This document shows positions 1,768-40,113 of a stretch of 40,545 bases of DNA, piece by piece; within the stretch, counting starts at the first letter, position 1; each line of letters begins with the position of its first letter. The notes under the pieces are model-generated. The model did not search any database. It was not told where the DNA came from and was given only the letters and a program-made list of their open reading frames with translations. Position numbers and translations under genes: made by a program. The DNA is from Methylophilales bacterium (GTDB taxonomy: Bacteria > Pseudomonadota > Gammaproteobacteria > Burkholderiales > Methylophilaceae), in NCBI GenBank assembly GCA_021414145.1, contig JAIOOY010000068.1, positions 1-40,545 of the forward strand, given 5' to 3'.

Positions 1768-2346
1768 TTAAATAACCACTACACCTTCATTTTTAAGCAT
1801 ATTGATGAGCGCAATTAACGGTAAGCCTATCAGTGCATTCGGGTCATCGCCGCGCATCCATTCAATCAGCGCGATGCCCAGTCCTTCGGATTTGGCACTT
1901 CCAGCGCAGTGGTAGGGTTGTTCCTTGAGTAGGTAGTTTTCAATTTCCGTATCGCTTAAATCTCGAAACTTGACTTCATAGGTCACGACTTCGGTTTGCA
2001 TATTGCCACTTGCGCTGTTGTAGAGGCACAGGGCGCTGTGGAAGCTGACGGTACGGCCACGCATCAGACTAAGCTGTTTGACAGCGTTGTCGTGCGTCAG
2101 CGGCTTACCCAGTTGCATGTTATCCAGTGTCGCGACCTGATCGCAGCCGATGATCAAGCTATCGGGGTGGGATAGGCCTATTTTGCGGGCTTTGGCTTGT
2201 GCCAGCCGTAGTGCGGTGACTTCGGGAGCTTCGCCCTGTAATGGGGCTTCGTCCACATCGGGTGAAATCACGGTAAACGGGATTTGCAGCCGCTCCAGCA
2301 GTTCGCGGCGGTATGGGGAGGAGGAGGCGAGTATTAGTGTAAACAT
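1768..2346 (-). CDS. yceF: Maf-family nucleotide pyrophosphatase (YceF-type)
   Basis: [53 protein letters not shown] and [16 protein letters not shown] are Maf/YceF motifs. Confidence 0.9.
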
Positions 2347-2350
2347 GAGT

Positions 2351-2373
2351 AAAAAGACCGGCTTGCGCCGGCC
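2351..2373 (-). terminator. intrinsic terminator-like hairpin downstream of the oadA/pycB-like gene
   Basis: On the - strand: GGCCGGC-GCAA-GCCGGTC (7 bp, one G-T) followed by TTTTT. Confidence 0.75.
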
Positions 2374-2382
2374 TATTTTGGC

Positions 2383-4218
2383 TTACTGGATTTCAATCAA
2401 AGTCTCGTCAGGTGTCACGCTATCGCCCTTTTTGACGTGAATCGCTATCACGACGCCTTCTTTGGCGGCCTGAATCTCGTTTTCCATTTTCATGGCTTCA
2501 ATCACCAGTACGCCGTCACCTGCGTTTACCTTATCACCCACTTTGACTTTCACGTCCACAATGGTGCCAGGCATGGCGGTGGTGACGCAGCCTTCGTGTG
2601 TGGGGCGTGGGCGGCTGCCGATGCTGGCGGTGGCGGTCTTTTTCTTGCTGCCACCACTGCCGCCACCGGAAACTTGCACCTCACTTAAGGTTTCGACGAT
2701 GACTTCTTCGGAAACGCCATCTACCGAAACGTAGAAGGGGCGCTGCTCTTCGCCAGCATGGCCGCTGCCGGTGAGCTTGATGTGGAAAGTTTCGCCGTGT
2801 AGCGTGACATTGAACTCGCTAGGCGCGTATCGCGCTGCGGAAGGCGTGGCGGATTCTTTTGTGAGCAATGGATCGGCCTTGAGCGTGTCAGCATTACGTT
2901 CTTGTAAGAAGGTCTGCGCCAAGTCGGGGAACATGGCGTAGGTCAGCACGTCTTCCTCGGATTTGGCCAAGGTTTCACACTGCGTGGTCAGATGCACCAT
3001 TTCGTCTTCTAATAAGTCCGCTGGGCGGCAGGTGATGACTTCAGCGTCACCGACAGCTTGCGCTTTGATTTTTTCGTTGACCGGGGCGGGAGCCTTGCCA
3101 TACTGGCCTACGAAGTAATTTTTTACCTCGTTGGTGATGGATTTGTAGCGCGAACCTGTGAGTACGTTCAACACTGCTTGTGTGCCGACGATCTGCGAAG
3201 TGGGCGTAACCAGCGGCGGAAAGCCTAAGTCTTCGCGTACACGAGGAATCTCTGCCAGCACTTCATCCATGCGATTGAGAGCGCCTTGCTCTTTGAGCTG
3301 GTTGGAGAGGTTGGAAATCATGCCGCCGGGGACTTGATTGAGCAGCACGCGAGTATCTACGCCAGTGAAGTCGCTCTCGAACTGCCAGTATTTCTTGCGG
3401 ACTTCGCGGAAATAGGCGGTGATTTCTTGCACCGCTGCCAAATCCAATCCGGTGTCATATTCTGTGCCCTTGAATGCAGCGATGATACTTTCAGTTGAAG
3501 AATGGCTGGCACCCTCGCCAAAAGACGAGTTGCATGTATCCAGCATGGTTGCACCGGCTTCTACGCCCCTGAGAAAGCTCATCGCAGACAAGCCAGACGT
3601 GGCGTGGCTATGCAGGTGAATAGGTAGCTTCACGGCAGTACGCAAGGCAGACACCAAATCAAAGGTGGCTTGTGGTGTGAGCAATCCTGCCATGTCTTTG
3701 ATGGCGATGGTATCGCAGCCCATGGCTTCCATTTCCTTCGCCAAACCGACAAAGTGAGGGATGTCGTGCACCGGGCTGGTGGTATAGCTAATTGCGCCTT
3801 CAGCGTGCTTTTTGGCCTTTTTGACAGCTTCGACTGAAACACGAATGTTGCGCATGTCGTTCATCGCGTCAAAGATACGGAATACGTCTACGCCGTTATC
3901 AGCAGACTTTTGTACAAAGGCGCGTACCACGTCGTCTGAATAGTGACGGTAACCCAGCAGGTTTTGCCCGCGGAGCAGCATCTGAATGCGGCTATTGGGC
4001 AGCGCTTTGCGTAACTTACTCAATCGCTCCCATGGGTCTTCTTTCAAAAAGCGCACGCAGGCATCGAAGGTAGCGCCACCCCAGGCTTCAAGCGACCAAA
4101 AGCCGATACTGTCTAGCTTGCTGCAAATCGGCAGCATGTCCTCGGTACGCATGCGGGTAGCGATAATGGATTGATGACCATCGCGTAAAACTAATTCAGA
4201 AACAAGTACTTTAGCCAT
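2383..4218 (-). CDS. pyruvate carboxylase subunit B / oxaloacetate decarboxylase alpha subunit (carboxyltransferase + biotinyl domain)
   Basis: LVLRDGHQSIIATRMRTEDMLPI, AIKDMAGLLTP, HLHSHATSG and the C-terminal biotinyl motif EAMKMENEI. Confidence 0.92.
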   Translation of the reverse strand: MAKVLVSELVLRDGHQSIIATRMRTEDMLPICSKLDSIGFWSLEAWGGATFDACVRFLKEDPWERLSKLRKALPNSRIQMLLRGQNLLGYRHYSDDVVRAFVQKSADNGVDVFRIFDAMNDMRNIRVSVEAVKKAKKHAEGAISYTTSPVHDIPHFVGLAKEMEAMGCDTIAIKDMAGLLTPQATFDLVSALRTAVKLPIHLHSHATSGLSAMSFLRGVEAGATMLDTCNSSFGEGASHSSTESIIAAFKGTEYDTGLDLAAVQEITAYFREVRKKYWQFESDFTGVDTRVLLNQVPGGMISNLSNQLKEQGALNRMDEVLAEIPRVREDLGFPPLVTPTSQIVGTQAVLNVLTGSRYKSITNEVKNYFVGQYGKAPAPVNEKIKAQAVGDAEVITCRPADLLEDEMVHLTTQCETLAKSEEDVLTYAMFPDLAQTFLQERNADTLKADPLLTKESATPSAARYAPSEFNVTLHGETFHIKLTGSGHAGEEQRPFYVSVDGVSEEVIVETLSEVQVSGGGSGGSKKKTATASIGSRPRPTHEGCVTTAMPGTIVDVKVKVGDKVNAGDGVLVIEAMKMENEIQAAKEGVVIAIHVKKGDSVTPDETLIEIQ

Positions 4219-4245
4219 AATTTTAATATTTTAAGTTAGATTAAA

Positions 4246-5664
4246 TTAGATGCCTTCATGCGCTGCAATTGCTGCCGCAATCGCGGCCGCAAATAATTCT
4301 GGTGGTAGCTTGGTAGTGTACTCTGTCAACTCAGGGTGCATTTCCACAAAGCTGGTATCAAACGTTGCCGCCTTAAAATCCGGGTGTTTCATGATTTCCT
4401 GATAATACGGAATCGTGGTTTTTACGCCATATACCACCATATCGTCCAGCGCTCGACGGCCACGCTCCACTACGCTAGGCCAATCCAGCGCCCACACTGT
4501 GAGCTTGGCGCACATGGAATCGAAATAGGGCGGGATGGTGTATCCGGAATACATGGCCGCATCAATCCGAACACCAGGACCGCCAGGCGCGTAATAACGG
4601 GTGATCTTGCCAAAGCTGGGTAGAAAACCATTCTTCGGGTCTTCAGCATTGATGCGATATTCCATGGCATAACCGCGAAATTTCACTTCTTCCTGCTTGT
4701 ATTGAAGCTCGTGGCCATAGGCGATGCGAATCTGCTCTTGCACGATGTCTATACCGGTAATGGTTTCTGTCACCGTATGCTCTACTTGCAGACGGGTATT
4801 CATTTCCATGAAGTAGAAGCGATTATCTTGGTCTAGCAAGAATTCCACAGTACCTGCATTCTCGTAACCCACCGCCTTAGCAGCTTTCACACCCAGAGTG
4901 CCGATGTAATCGCGCTGTGCTTGAGATAGCTGAGGCGAGGGCGCGATTTCGATGAGTTTCTGATTTCGACGTTGTATTGAGCAGTCACGCTCAAACAGGT
5001 GAATCACATTGCCGTGGCTATCTGCCAGTATTTGCACCTCGATATGGCGCGGGTTGACTACGCATTTTTCCAGAAATACTTCGGGTTTACCGAAGGCTTT
5101 ACTGGCTTCGGAGATCACGCGATCATAATTACTGAGTAATTCTTTTTCATTATCGCAACGGCGTATGCCGCGCCCACCGCCGCCGTTGGTGGCCTTCAGC
5201 ATGACCGGATAACCAATCTCAGCGGCCAATTTACGAGCTTCCTCTACATCTTCCAGATTTCCTTCGCTACCCGGCACGCAGGGGATGCCTGCGCCTATCA
5301 TGGCGTTACGCGCTTGTATCTTGTCGCCCATTTGGGTGATAACGTCAGGATTGGGGCCGATGAATTTAACCCCGCGCTTGGCGCAGATATCTGACAACAC
5401 GGGGTTCTCAGACAAAAATCCATATCCTGGGTGCAGCGCATCGCAACCTGCAGCTACCGCAAGATTGACGATGTTATGTGCATTAAGATAACCCTGTACC
5501 GGATCCGAACCTATGTTATATGCCTCGTCCGCCTTTTTGACATGTAAAGCGTGGCGGTCGGCATCGGTGTAGATGGCAGCCGAGGTAATGCCCATCTCGG
5601 AACACGCACGCACGATGCGCACTGCAATTTCGCCGCGATTCGCAATGAGGATTTTTTTGAACAT
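4246..5664 (-). CDS. biotin carboxylase subunit (pyruvate carboxylase subunit A / AccC-like)
   Basis: MFKKILIANRGEIAVRIVRACSEMGI, GGGGRGIRR, EMNTRLQVEHTVTE. The true start is probably ATG at 5664; the ORF track extends to 5751. Confidence 0.92.
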   Translation of the reverse strand: MFKKILIANRGEIAVRIVRACSEMGITSAAIYTDADRHALHVKKADEAYNIGSDPVQGYLNAHNIVNLAVAAGCDALHPGYGFLSENPVLSDICAKRGVKFIGPNPDVITQMGDKIQARNAMIGAGIPCVPGSEGNLEDVEEARKLAAEIGYPVMLKATNGGGGRGIRRCDNEKELLSNYDRVISEASKAFGKPEVFLEKCVVNPRHIEVQILADSHGNVIHLFERDCSIQRRNQKLIEIAPSPQLSQAQRDYIGTLGVKAAKAVGYENAGTVEFLLDQDNRFYFMEMNTRLQVEHTVTETITGIDIVQEQIRIAYGHELQYKQEEVKFRGYAMEYRINAEDPKNGFLPSFGKITRYYAPGGPGVRIDAAMYSGYTIPPYFDSMCAKLTVWALDWPSVVERGRRALDDMVVYGVKTTIPYYQEIMKHPDFKAATFDTSFVEMHPELTEYTTKLPPELFAAAIAAAIAAHEGI

Positions 5665-5832
5665 GCAATTATCTTTATTAAGGTTGCCTAATGTAGTGTG
5701 GTATTTTTGACACTCAAAACCAGCCGATTGTAACATGCTGGCGCTGACCATTAAATACGCTTAAGCTTATATTCCTAGGCCTTTGCTGCACATCGGCATA
5801 GATTGTTTTAATCATCTCTATTAACTGAAACC

Positions 5833-6339
5833 ATGACTCGCAAACCTATACTGATTAACACTCATGAGTTCATTAAGCAATCGCTTGAAATTCATGGTAA
5901 AATCCGCGCCTCTCAGATTCTGGCGATACAGGACAGCCTGTATGCGGGCGCCGATGAGGGTGAAGTGAGTTATACGCTGAGTGGCGATAAAAGCCATCAC
6001 GGCAAGCCTAGTTTGAAGCTTGATTTGGCGGGGCAAGTGACATTATGTTGCCAGCGTTGTTTGGGCGAAATGCACTACCCGTTAGTCAGTAGCACATGGT
6101 TTGAGGTGGTTGCCGATGAATCAGCCATACCGGAGCTGGATGAAGACGATGAGGTGGATTATATAGTCGCCAGCACCCAGTTTGACGTGGAAGCACTGGT
6201 TGAAGAAGAGCTTCTGCTGAGTTTGCCGCTAGCCCCAAGGCATGAAGAGGGTGCGTGTGCTGGCGACGTCAGTATCATGACAGGACAAAAGCAAAATCCT
6301 TTCAAGATATTGGAAGGTTTAAAGAAACCAGTTAGTTAA
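5833..6339 (+). CDS. yceD: YceD family protein (DUF177), 23S rRNA accumulation
   Basis: [16 protein letters not shown] and [17 protein letters not shown] motifs; directly upstream of rpmF. Confidence 0.9.
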
Positions 6340-37241: not shown

Positions 37242-37556
37242 ATGGAGATATTAAGCGACATTTTGGTAGTTCTAAGGATGTGGGGGCCTTTTTTTGGCCT
37301 AATTCTCAGCGCAATAGGCGCTTGCCTAATTTTTGTAGGGGTGAGAGAGCAGATAGCCGAGGCAAAACGACTGGACAGTCTCATCTCTAGCCAACCTAAC
37401 AAGCATGCGGATGGTAGAACTCTAGATAAAGCAATCTCAGTCCGCGATCAACGCTCCAAAGAGAGGACAGATGCCAAAAAAATGGAGATCATTGGCATGG
37501 CGGTCTTTATTTTCGGATGCGTACTGCAAGCTTTCGGCAGTTTTCCCATCAAGTAA
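37242..37556 (+). CDS. small membrane protein (104 aa), hypothetical
   Basis: Two hydrophobic segments (GPFFGLILSAIGACLIFVGV; IIGMAVFIFGCVLQAFGSF) flanking a charged region; convergent 8-bp overlap with the cyclase gene. Confidence 0.6.
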   Translation: MEILSDILVVLRMWGPFFGLILSAIGACLIFVGVREQIAEAKRLDSLISSQPNKHADGRTLDKAISVRDQRSKERTDAKKMEIIGMAVFIFGCVLQAFGSFPIK

Positions 37557-39039
37557 TTTCCACAATTTCAGTCACCGCCATCCCGCCAATATCTCGCAGC
37601 TTTTCATAGCGCGGTGAATTCAGGTCAACCAGTTCAGCAAGCCTTGAATACGAGGCATTTACAAACAACTCTCTTCCGTCCGTATCTTGCCGTTTTACAC
37701 CGAAAGTCACACATTTGCGTTCGTCCATAGTTAATTTCCCCAGCAGGTTCTTGCTCGCCCATATCGCACCGAAACGAGCAAAATCAGACAAGCGCGCTGC
37801 ATGGTTGATAGTGTCACCCAATACAGTGAATTCCACCTTGGTTTCAATATGAAAGACACCCAGCCACTCCTGCCCTTCATTTAAGCCGGTATTGAGATAA
37901 AGCTCGTTCAGCCAGTTCTTGCGTAGTTGCCATTCTTTGCTGATTTTTCGCATGGCTTTACGCATCTCACTGGCGCAGTGCAGTGCGTTAAGAATGTAAT
38001 GACAATCGGGTTGAGGGAAGAAGTAATACACCATGCCGTCGCCCACATGCTTACCATGAGTGCCGTAATATTTACGGAAAATAGGATCCATGGTGGCCCA
38101 AATCTGGTTGATGAGCTCGAAGTATTCCTCCGGTGGCAGTTCAGAGCAAATGCGTACCGAGTTTTGTAAGTCAGCCACCATCACTGCCACGTCAGTCAGG
38201 ACAGGCAATCGTTTTTTTAGTAGATTACGTATCACTTCGTCACGACGTTCCAGCAAGCCCAGCAAACCACCATGCCCAGCCTGTTCGTGTGCGTAGACCA
38301 CCAGTATACCTTCGCGGAAATAGGAGGCGTAGACACGATAATGTTCTGTCTCACCTGCCTTATCTTTTAAGGCAATAGGAAATTCTGCCAAAGGGCCATT
38401 TTTATTGGATTCAGTGATACCCGCCAACGTTCCTGTCATGCCCAGCGCCGCATTGCCCAGCACTGTAGAGATACGTTCCCTTCCTAGCGCCTGATGCAAC
38501 TGTACAAAAGCCTCACGGTTCTCGCTGTTTCCGCCATAAGCACCACGCGACAGATAGTCTACCGCTCCACGTTGCTGGATATCCGAAGGTAGTTTATCGA
38601 AATTTCCTAGCAGCAAGCTACGCGCCTCCTCGTTGTACCATGCAATCTCCATATTGTAATTGACCATATACGCTGGATACGGTACCTGATCTATGGTCAG
38701 ACGCAACGCACCGGTTTCAACGGAGGTGCTGCGTGGCTTTTCATTGCTTGACTCAGTGATATCTACAGGAGTTTCTGTGGCGATGGTCATGGCATATCCT
38801 TCTTGTTGAAGTTGAAGTGCGATTTCGTTCATAGGTGTTCCAGATTTTTTGAGCGCCTTGATACGTTCGATACGGCGTACAGCATCATCGGGGAAATGCC
38901 CAATCTGTCGAGCACGAGTATTAGCATCGGTACCTGGACTGCCCACCACCGGGCGCGGTAGCAATCCTAGTGCGATATAGTTGTTCAGGGTGGCGCGCGA
39001 AACGCCGGTGGCCTGAATAATATCCAAGCTGGTGAGCAT
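37549..39039 (-). CDS. MerR-like HTH + PAS-like + class III adenylate/guanylate cyclase fusion
   Basis: N-term SLDIIQATGVSRATLNNYIALGLLPRP...RRIERIKALKKSGTPMNEIALQLQ (MerR-like); RLTIDQVPYPAYMVNYNMEIAWYNEEA (PAS-like); VMVADLQNSVRI, KHVGDGMVYYF, VEFTVLGDTINHAARLS (class III cyclase). Confidence 0.88.
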   Translation of the reverse strand: MLTSLDIIQATGVSRATLNNYIALGLLPRPVVGSPGTDANTRARQIGHFPDDAVRRIERIKALKKSGTPMNEIALQLQQEGYAMTIATETPVDITESSNEKPRSTSVETGALRLTIDQVPYPAYMVNYNMEIAWYNEEARSLLLGNFDKLPSDIQQRGAVDYLSRGAYGGNSENREAFVQLHQALGRERISTVLGNAALGMTGTLAGITESNKNGPLAEFPIALKDKAGETEHYRVYASYFREGILVVYAHEQAGHGGLLGLLERRDEVIRNLLKKRLPVLTDVAVMVADLQNSVRICSELPPEEYFELINQIWATMDPIFRKYYGTHGKHVGDGMVYYFFPQPDCHYILNALHCASEMRKAMRKISKEWQLRKNWLNELYLNTGLNEGQEWLGVFHIETKVEFTVLGDTINHAARLSDFARFGAIWASKNLLGKLTMDERKCVTFGVKRQDTDGRELFVNASYSRLAELVDLNSPRYEKLRDIGGMAVTEIVEIT

Positions 39040-39084
39040 GATTTGAACTGTCCAGTTGATTTGTACAGTTTACACATTGAACTT

Positions 39085-39119
39085 TTATACAGTATAAGTC
39101 AAGTGCCTATATTGACTTA
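39085..39119. promoter_or_regulatory. overlapping dyads upstream of the MerR-cyclase gene (candidate operator)
   Basis: TTATAC-A-GTATAA (39085-39097) and TAAGTCAA-N9-TTGACTTA (39095-39119), both perfect. Confidence 0.5.
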
Positions 39120-39162: not shown

Positions 39163-40113
39163 TTATTTAGAAATAATGAACTGTCTAACTATATTATTCA
39201 TACTGTCTAATATGGTACTGTCCAAACAATCCAGCTCAACCGTGTCATCCATGCCACGCAGCCAAGTCATCTGCCGTTTAGCAAGCTGCCGAGTGGCGGC
39301 AATGCCCTGCTCTCTCAGCGTGACAAGGTCGATCTCTCCATCCAGATAGCGCCATGCTTGGCGATAACCTACACAGCGCATGGCAGGCGATTCTGGCTTA
39401 AGTGTGGGGTAATTAAGTTGTAGCGCCCTCACCTCCTCCACCAAACCAGCCTGCAACATGGCATCAAAACGCTCTGCGATGCGCTGATGCAGCACGGCAC
39501 GATTTGAAGGCAACAGTGAAAACTTGAGTAGCCGGTAAGGTAAAACGTCGGTTTTGACGGCTTGCAACAGCGTGGACATGGGGTGGCCCGTAACATGCCA
39601 AATCTCCAGCGCACGTTCGATGCGTTGCGCATCGTTAGGCTTGAGGCGTGCTGCCGTAGCAGGATCAATCTTTCGTAGTTCCTCATGCATGGCTGGCCAG
39701 CCAAACTTTTCAGCTTGTTCCAGAATGCTGCTACGAACCGCCGGATCCGCCTGAGGCAATGCGTTCAAACCATACTGCAAGGCATTAAAATAAAGCATGG
39801 TGCCGCCTACTAGTAACGGAATCTTACCGCGCGCGGAAATTTCCTCCATATGAAGAAGCGCATCTTGCCGAAACCGCGCAGCAGAATAGACTTCAGTCGG
39901 CGAAATCAAGTCAAGTAGGTGGTGTGGTGCTTGTGCCAGCGTTGCAGCATCCGGCTTGGCCGTGCCTATGTCCATATCGCGATACACCAACGCGGAATCC
40001 ACGCTGATAATCTCTACCGGCAATTGTTGCGCCAGTGCCACGGCCAGACCGGTTTTTCCCGAAGCGGTTGGTCCCATCAAAAAAATAGCCGGCGGAAAGT
40101 CCTGTTGTTTCAT
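39163..40113 (-). CDS. miaA: tRNA dimethylallyltransferase
   Basis: [76 protein letters not shown]. Start at 40113 rather than 40170. Confidence 0.96.

Follow-up and report, generated by a model that had tools for sequence, protein, structure and literature searches.

What does a DNA-binding head do on a nucleotide cyclase, and which promoter does it serve? This question is raised by an open reading frame (ORF) at positions 37549-39039, minus strand, of contig JAIOOY010000068.1 (assembly GCA_021414145.1) from a Methylophilales bacterium; the whole stretch analysed, 40,545 nucleotides, is referred to here as the window. The frame starts with ATG, contains no internal stops and encodes 496 amino acids, in which a previous sequence-only reading had recognised a MerR-like helix-turn-helix (HTH), a PAS-like segment and a class III nucleotide cyclase. 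This observation was confirmed, with both MerR_1 and Guanylate_cyc scoring above their Pfam gathering scores. The main new result, not noted in that reading, is a putative operator upstream of the orthologous genes, a 13-bp palindrome of the form TTRGACWGTCYAA. The protein is probably a soluble one-component sensor-adenylyl cyclase that represses its own gene through the HTH, with cyclic AMP (cAMP) as its output.

A putative operator array at the cyclase gene

Words were counted in the 150 bp preceding each of 78 orthologues, with no prior motif and with expected numbers taken from dinucleotide shuffles. The word ACTGTCTA was present in 44 of the 78 upstream regions compared with 0.4 expected, and the enriched words assembled into the 13-bp palindrome. 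At a loose threshold, 210 sites of this type were detected in 73 of the 78 promoters, most often three and usually two to four in each. The density of sites at a stringent threshold was 8.1 per kb in the genes' own promoters versus 0.0125 per kb in the rest of the same loci; a second pair of densities, again for own promoters and remaining locus sequence, was 9.6 versus 0.024 per kb. Given that the matrix used for this comparison had been trained on the same promoters, a held-out test was run with a matrix trained on Gallionella-type loci and applied to Rhodocyclales, alpha and gamma loci. All 19 test promoters contained sites, with 38 in 3.9 kb of promoter and 1 in 192 kb elsewhere.

The corresponding features of the window, with operators located by motif scan, are as follows.

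39043..39055 (no strand): putative operator 1, TTGAACTGTCCAG, centred 10 bp before the ATG
39061..39073 (no strand): putative operator 2, TTGTACAGTTTAC, centred 28 bp before the ATG
39085..39097 (no strand): putative operator 3, the perfect palindrome TTATACAGTATAA, centred 52 bp before the ATG and directly after the -35 element
39097..39102 (minus strand): putative -35 element TTGACT of the cyclase promoter, TTGAC being common in orthologue promoters; the -10 element is poor in the window member
39176..39225 (no strand): distal operator cluster (39176-39188, 39198-39210 and 39213-39225) inside the 3' end of miaA

Operator 3 is the sole exact copy of TTRKACWGTMYAA in the available genome of the window. 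We searched for this exact sequence in whole genomes and found it 11 times in 12 genomes with an HTH-carrying gene (approximately 40 Mb), nine copies being upstream of the gene, one within it and one elsewhere. The 14 genomes (approximately 38 Mb) that have no such gene, a gene lacking the HTH or one with its start cut off contained three copies, singly. Sites with one mismatch were located at the gene in three of four cases in the window's genome, four of five in G012 and two of nine in G019. No convincing second target or regulon was found among the genomes searched. Given that exact operators are almost absent elsewhere, no regulon is visible, and the DNA-binding head seems devoted to the gene that encodes it. 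The initial suggestion that one polypeptide combines sensing, second-messenger output and promoter control is strengthened by the conserved HTH and cyclase and by the cognate operator, with the amendment that promoter control looks private to the gene and does not extend to a regulon.

Loss of the HTH provided natural controls. In L008, where the gene is located after miaA as in the window, the HTH has been lost; its first half is gone from L010 and L124, members of a single genus, and L125 is a decaying gene with no HTH. (L112 was left out of this set, being cut by a contig end.) No operator was found anywhere in the four loci (Fisher p = 8e-4, without phylogenetic correction), and the HTH-less orthologues retain the cyclase residues. 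L127 (G657:C136) is a second copy of the gene, in a genome that also has a normal one, and encodes R in place of D290, S in place of N412 and H in place of R416, with GKHVGD gone. Its HTH is kept with an altered recognition helix (SRAALQSY), and the best operator score in 3.8 kb was 5.4, under the loosest threshold of 7. L127 is thus likely, on its sequence, a pseudo-cyclase regulator without an operator.

Variants of the array were also observed. Half-sites separated by 4 bp instead of 1 bp occurred nine times, and none was found with spacers of 2, 3, 5 or 6 bp; the 4-bp form is present upstream of L060, L062, L067, L069, L071 and L108 (for example, TTGGACATGTGTCCAA in L108). The related loci L084 and L090 carry strong operator-like sites inside the gene, at +315 to +433 and approximately 115 bp apart, together with a weak upstream site. 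At L058, an apparent transposase-type insertion (approximately 4400-6000) has cost the gene its 5' part; the operators remain further upstream and, like the HTH region, are cut off by it from the remainder of the gene.

Domains of the protein

To describe the protein, we combined profile searches, alignments and an AlphaFold (AF2) model of the 496-residue chain built from 43 sequences, with a mean predicted local distance difference test (pLDDT) score of 79.6. NCBIfam contained no model for the protein. The regions, all on the minus strand, are listed with the evidence for each.

37549..39039 (minus strand): gene for the MerR HTH, PAS-like and class III cyclase protein, 496 amino acids (ORF, Pfam, orthologues)
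38803..39030 (minus strand): MerR-type winged HTH, residues ~4-79 (Pfam MerR_1, AF2 model, invariant residues)
38287..38706 (minus strand): PAS-like (MmyB/MltR-LBD-like) putative ligand-binding domain (LBD), residues ~112-251 (AF2 topology, weak MLTR_LBD, hhalign)
38197..38271 (minus strand): conserved helical linker preceding the cyclase, GLLGLLERRDEVIRNLLKKRLPVLT region, residues ~257-281 (model helices, conservation)
37729..38196 (minus strand): class III nucleotide cyclase catalytic domain, residues 282-437 (Pfam, alignment with CyaB 3r5g, Foldseek, conservation)

The MerR_1 match covers residues 9-79 (E = 6.1e-5; 23.5 bits, gathering score 21.6) and was obtained for 41 of 43 aligned members, with Guanylate_cyc obtained for all 43. 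In the model, this region is a winged HTH of the order helix-helix-wing-helix-helix, with pLDDT values mostly of 77-94, so that profile and predicted structure, either of which might have contradicted an N-terminal HTH, both upheld it. The recognition helix SRATLNNYI occupies residues 14-22, and SRATLNNY is nearly invariant in the family; S4, SRATL, N20, Y21, G25, P30, G47 and F49 are the invariant residues of the HTH. The long antiparallel coiled-coil dimerisation helix of the MerR family was not seen in the model, in which the final HTH helix ends at about residue 79 and a 28-residue linker of low confidence follows (residues 85-112). A profile search of the PDB with the HTH alignment gave no useful match.

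The Guanylate_cyc match covers residues 282-437 (E = 3.5e-12; 46.7 bits, cut-off 21.9). The nearest solved sequence is the adenylyl cyclase CyaB (3r5g), which was also the top Foldseek match of the model, the other best matches being Cya2 and CyaC. D290, K330, D334, T405, N412 and R416, located in the motifs VADLQ (D290), KHVGDGM (K330, D334) and EFTVLGDTINHAAR (T405, N412, R416), align with the metal, purine and transition-state residues of CyaB. All six class III catalytic positions are therefore present, and five are invariant or nearly so in the family: among 81 aligned members, D290, K330, D334 and R416 are conserved in 81 and N412 in 80. The metal-binding Asp residues and the N..AAR motif had thus been correctly read as intact from the sequence. 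Position 405 is T in the window protein and T, A or V across the same 81 members, which carry DLQ[NSG]SV, with an invariant Gln292, in place of the usual DIxGFT motif.

K330 and T405 match CyaB, and the guanylyl cyclase Cya2 has Glu and Gly at these positions. Given that Lys330 and Thr405 are as in CyaB and unlike Cya2, cAMP is the likely product. The earlier choice of cAMP or cGMP can be narrowed accordingly to probably cAMP made from ATP, with Lys330 kept in every aligned member. The predicted cyclase should be active as a homodimer; we infer its ATP specificity, dimer geometry and ligand sensing from sequence and modelling. Proteins with domains that bind cyclic nucleoside monophosphates (cNMPs) were found in all six genomes tested, with six matches in the window's own incomplete genome, and are potential readers of cAMP.

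The middle domain is modelled with strands at residues 123-126, 131-135, 217-225, 231-240 and 245-251 and with helices between strands 2 and 3, a PAS-like core that agrees with the description of MltR (PMC3406030). In the target, a sub-threshold match to MLTR_LBD (PF17765) covers residues 111-151 (12.6 bits, cut-off 26.3); two of 43 members match at E <= 0.01 (best E, 2.8e-4), and hhalign against the MmyB/MltR LBD gave 41% probability over 60 columns. No significant PAS match was found in the middle domain with Pfam, and a PDB profile search with its alignment gave no useful match. Folded by itself, the domain reached a pLDDT of 40, and that model was discarded. The PAS-like segment of the sequence-only reading therefore stands by predicted topology and weak MLTR_LBD matches, and the comparisons weakly suggest, at low significance, that it is nearer to the MmyB/MltR branch of PAS-like domains than to ordinary PAS. 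MltR was crystallised with a fatty acid (PMC3406030), which may serve as a lead, and a lead only, to the middle-domain ligand, MltR being a distant PAS-like relative by topology.

Between this domain and the cyclase, the model shows helices at residues 257-264 and 266-276. Mean column conservation among the 81 members was 0.82 for the cyclase, 0.75 for the preceding helices, 0.61 for the HTH and 0.50 for the middle domain. The aligned sequences indicate purifying selection on both the HTH and the cyclase across a wide family.

Proposed autoregulation and alternative explanations

TTGAC was found within the last 150 bp of 68 of the 78 orthologue promoters. The best spacing between -35 and -10 elements was 15-18 bp in 53 of 60 assignable promoters, the -10 element being assigned by consensus only. 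The operator core is inside or at the edge of this spacer in 35 of the 60, and more copies reach down to the start codon. Given that operators extending over the spacer down to the start codon should block RNA polymerase, negative autoregulation is the simplest reading. We infer both binding of the operator by the HTH and repression rather than activation. The protein would be a homodimer in which the class III cyclase and PAS-like domains hold the subunits together. Its MerR-type HTH would bind the tandem 13-bp palindromes of its own promoter and repress by occupying the -35/-10 spacer, the -10 element and the leader, and the distal copies could contribute to cooperative binding or looping. 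A ligand bound by the PAS-like domain would presumably set the rate of the cyclase and may alter DNA affinity; the cyclic nucleotide, most likely cAMP from ATP, would be read by separate cNMP-binding proteins.

The same HTH and operator position are compatible with an autoactivator that distorts DNA at its own promoter in the manner of MerR, giving a bistable or signal-induced switch rather than negative feedback. The HTH is of MerR type, the operator often occupies the -35/-10 spacer, as is classical for MerR, and the distal sites could be activator sites. Classical MerR activation requires a spacer of 19-20 bp. Such spacers were not the rule in the orthologue promoters, where the dyad operator is present and spacers are mostly 15-18 bp rather than of the length that MerR activators realign, and further operators cover the leader downstream as far as the ATG, positions at which a bound protein should obstruct transcription. 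We therefore regard autoactivation as unlikely. Alternatively, the operator might belong to a different regulator, its presence at the cyclase gene being incidental. We regard this as extremely improbable: away from the gene, each genome is almost devoid of the operator, which accompanies the gene across several orders and is not found at genes that have lost the HTH.

Other alternatives concern the enzyme. The protein might be essentially a transcription factor, with a catalytically weak cyclase domain or one that serves as a nucleotide-binding or dimerisation module. The divergent first metal motif DLQxSV and the T/A/V variation at position 405 point in this direction, as does the paralogue L127, which lost metal and transition-state residues and kept its HTH. 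We consider this very unlikely, given that the essential residues are invariant or nearly so, the cyclase is better conserved than the HTH, HTH-less orthologues kept the cyclase and the genomes contain almost no other operator targets. A similarly slim chance is given to the proposal that the array is mainly an allosteric platform, with DNA binding shifting the dimer geometry to switch cAMP synthesis, so that free enzyme above a threshold signals. An HTH nearly dedicated to one locus with usually two to four sites, and a sensor and conserved helical linker joining it to the cyclase, would suit such gating, but the flexible linker at residues 85-112 argues against tight coupling, and the retention of cyclase residues in HTH-less orthologues indicates that the enzyme needs no DNA. 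A self-contained cAMP homeostat, in which the array would repress the gene and at the same time titrate or gate the enzyme, DNA thereby being an allosteric effector of a nucleotide cyclase, is a doubtful extension of the repressor model to which we assign a low probability. If it held, one polypeptide together with its promoter would make up an entire circuit of sensing, second-messenger production and feedback.

Several points weigh against the self-repressing adenylyl cyclase that we favour. Even with the loosest threshold, the motif was not detected in five of the 78 promoters, several of which carry a version expanded by 3 bp. The HTH was lost in about three independent events, including one in a decaying gene, and the operator could in principle be recognised by some other regulator. 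With the window's genome at 72% completeness, further targets in it may have been overlooked, and any role for the distal sites is conjectural. Since position 405 is variable and DIxGFT is replaced by DLQ[NSG]SV, activity and specificity could differ from those of textbook enzymes.

Related systems and distribution of the family

Fusion of a class III cyclase to a DNA-binding HTH on one polypeptide is known from the mycobacterial adenylyl cyclase Rv0386, in which the cyclase is joined to an AAA-ATPase and an HTH (PMC3938503), and from the mycobacterial CHD+LuxR cyclase sub-family (PMC3466318). The present protein differs from these in its order of N-terminal MerR-type HTH, PAS-like sensor and C-terminal cyclase; neither an AAA-ATPase nor a LuxR-type HTH appeared in its Pfam results, and no reported operator for Rv0386 or the CHD+LuxR cyclases was found in the literature. 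CyaB of Pseudomonas aeruginosa (3r5g) and CyaC of Spirulina (1wc1), among the top sequence and structure matches, have the catalytic fold and residues in common with it, whereas their solved domains have other sensors, no DNA-binding domain and a canonical first metal motif. With MerR and CarH/LitR the protein shares an N-terminal winged HTH and a dyad operator in the promoter spacer; unlike them, it has no long dimerisation helix in the model, a spacer mostly of 15-18 bp and an enzymatic C-terminus. MltR/MmyB-like regulators (3pxp) resemble it in having an N-terminal HTH and, after it, a PAS-like ligand-binding domain in which several helices are inserted between strands 2 and 3 (PMC3406030), but their HTH is of Xre type, they have no cyclase and the sequence similarity is weak; the C-terminal helix-strand of MltR was not seen. 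In the CyaC-CycR-Clr complex of Sinorhizobium, a cyclase is physically coupled to transcription regulators (PMC10463352), these being, in contrast, separate proteins (TetR-like CycR, CRP-like Clr) with a membrane-bound cyclase.

Given the class III catalytic signature, and a MerR HTH that lacks the dimerisation helix and long spacer, we place the protein among the class III cyclases, in a family that carries a MerR-type HTH. No description of the MerR-PAS-cyclase order with a private operator array was found in the open-access literature, most subscription journals being outside this coverage. The initial statement that no characterised example was known thus holds for MerR-cyclases within that literature and not for fusions of another type, such as the cyclase-ATPase-LuxR HTH of Rv0386. 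The family is apparently undescribed and would represent a second-messenger enzyme bearing its own promoter-specific, repressor-like head. The predicted operator is precise, which makes the function of the family directly testable; the protein could also provide a small, ready-to-use component of synthetic cAMP feedback circuits.

A search for close relatives identified eight members in 61 genomes, the window's own included. Scanning of genome contigs gave 254 relatives, of which the best 80, nearly all full length, were kept for analysis; these were from Methylophilaceae, Gallionellaceae, Rhodocyclales, Polynucleobacter, other Betaproteobacteria and a few bins named Gamma- or Alphaproteobacteria. 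The family is present in 12 of 398 genomes order-wide and 2 of 369 class-wide, own genome included, and a plasmid search gave no match. On these sequences, the architecture is a conserved and patchily distributed one, mostly of Betaproteobacteria. Many members are from metagenome bins, the names of which may be wrong, and some records appear both as a G genome and as an L locus (G019 and L032, for instance), so that counts from the two sets are not additive. L068, L084, L090 and L103, titled as metagenome-assembled genomes of Bordetella parapertussis, resemble diverse environmental Betaproteobacteria, and the titles are probably wrong.

Gene neighbourhood was rejected as a guide to function because no neighbour is common to the whole family. 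In Methylophilaceae loci the cyclase gene is flanked by miaA and dapC. Beta-oxidation and acyl-CoA genes flank some loci, but these are common genes and their rate was not shown to be above chance. In the window, a gene for a probable membrane protein of 104 amino acids (37242-37556, plus strand) converges on the cyclase gene and overlaps its final 8 bp; the protein shows weak DUF6944 similarity only, and the gene was not seen beside cyclase orthologues. In the Gallionella-type loci L040, L042, L048, L049, L051 and L058, a PAS-GGDEF-EAL gene starts 3 bp past the cyclase stop codon, an adjacency that suggests one operon linking cyclic mononucleotide and cyclic di-GMP turnover. A second cyclase gene (Guanylate_cyc plus FHA) is located 4 bp downstream of the MerR-cyclase gene at L080:4815-5816. 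Another class III cyclase, 25% identical, adjoins a frame for a cNMP-binding domain in the same genome at G000:C98, approximately 2300-4700 (L003).
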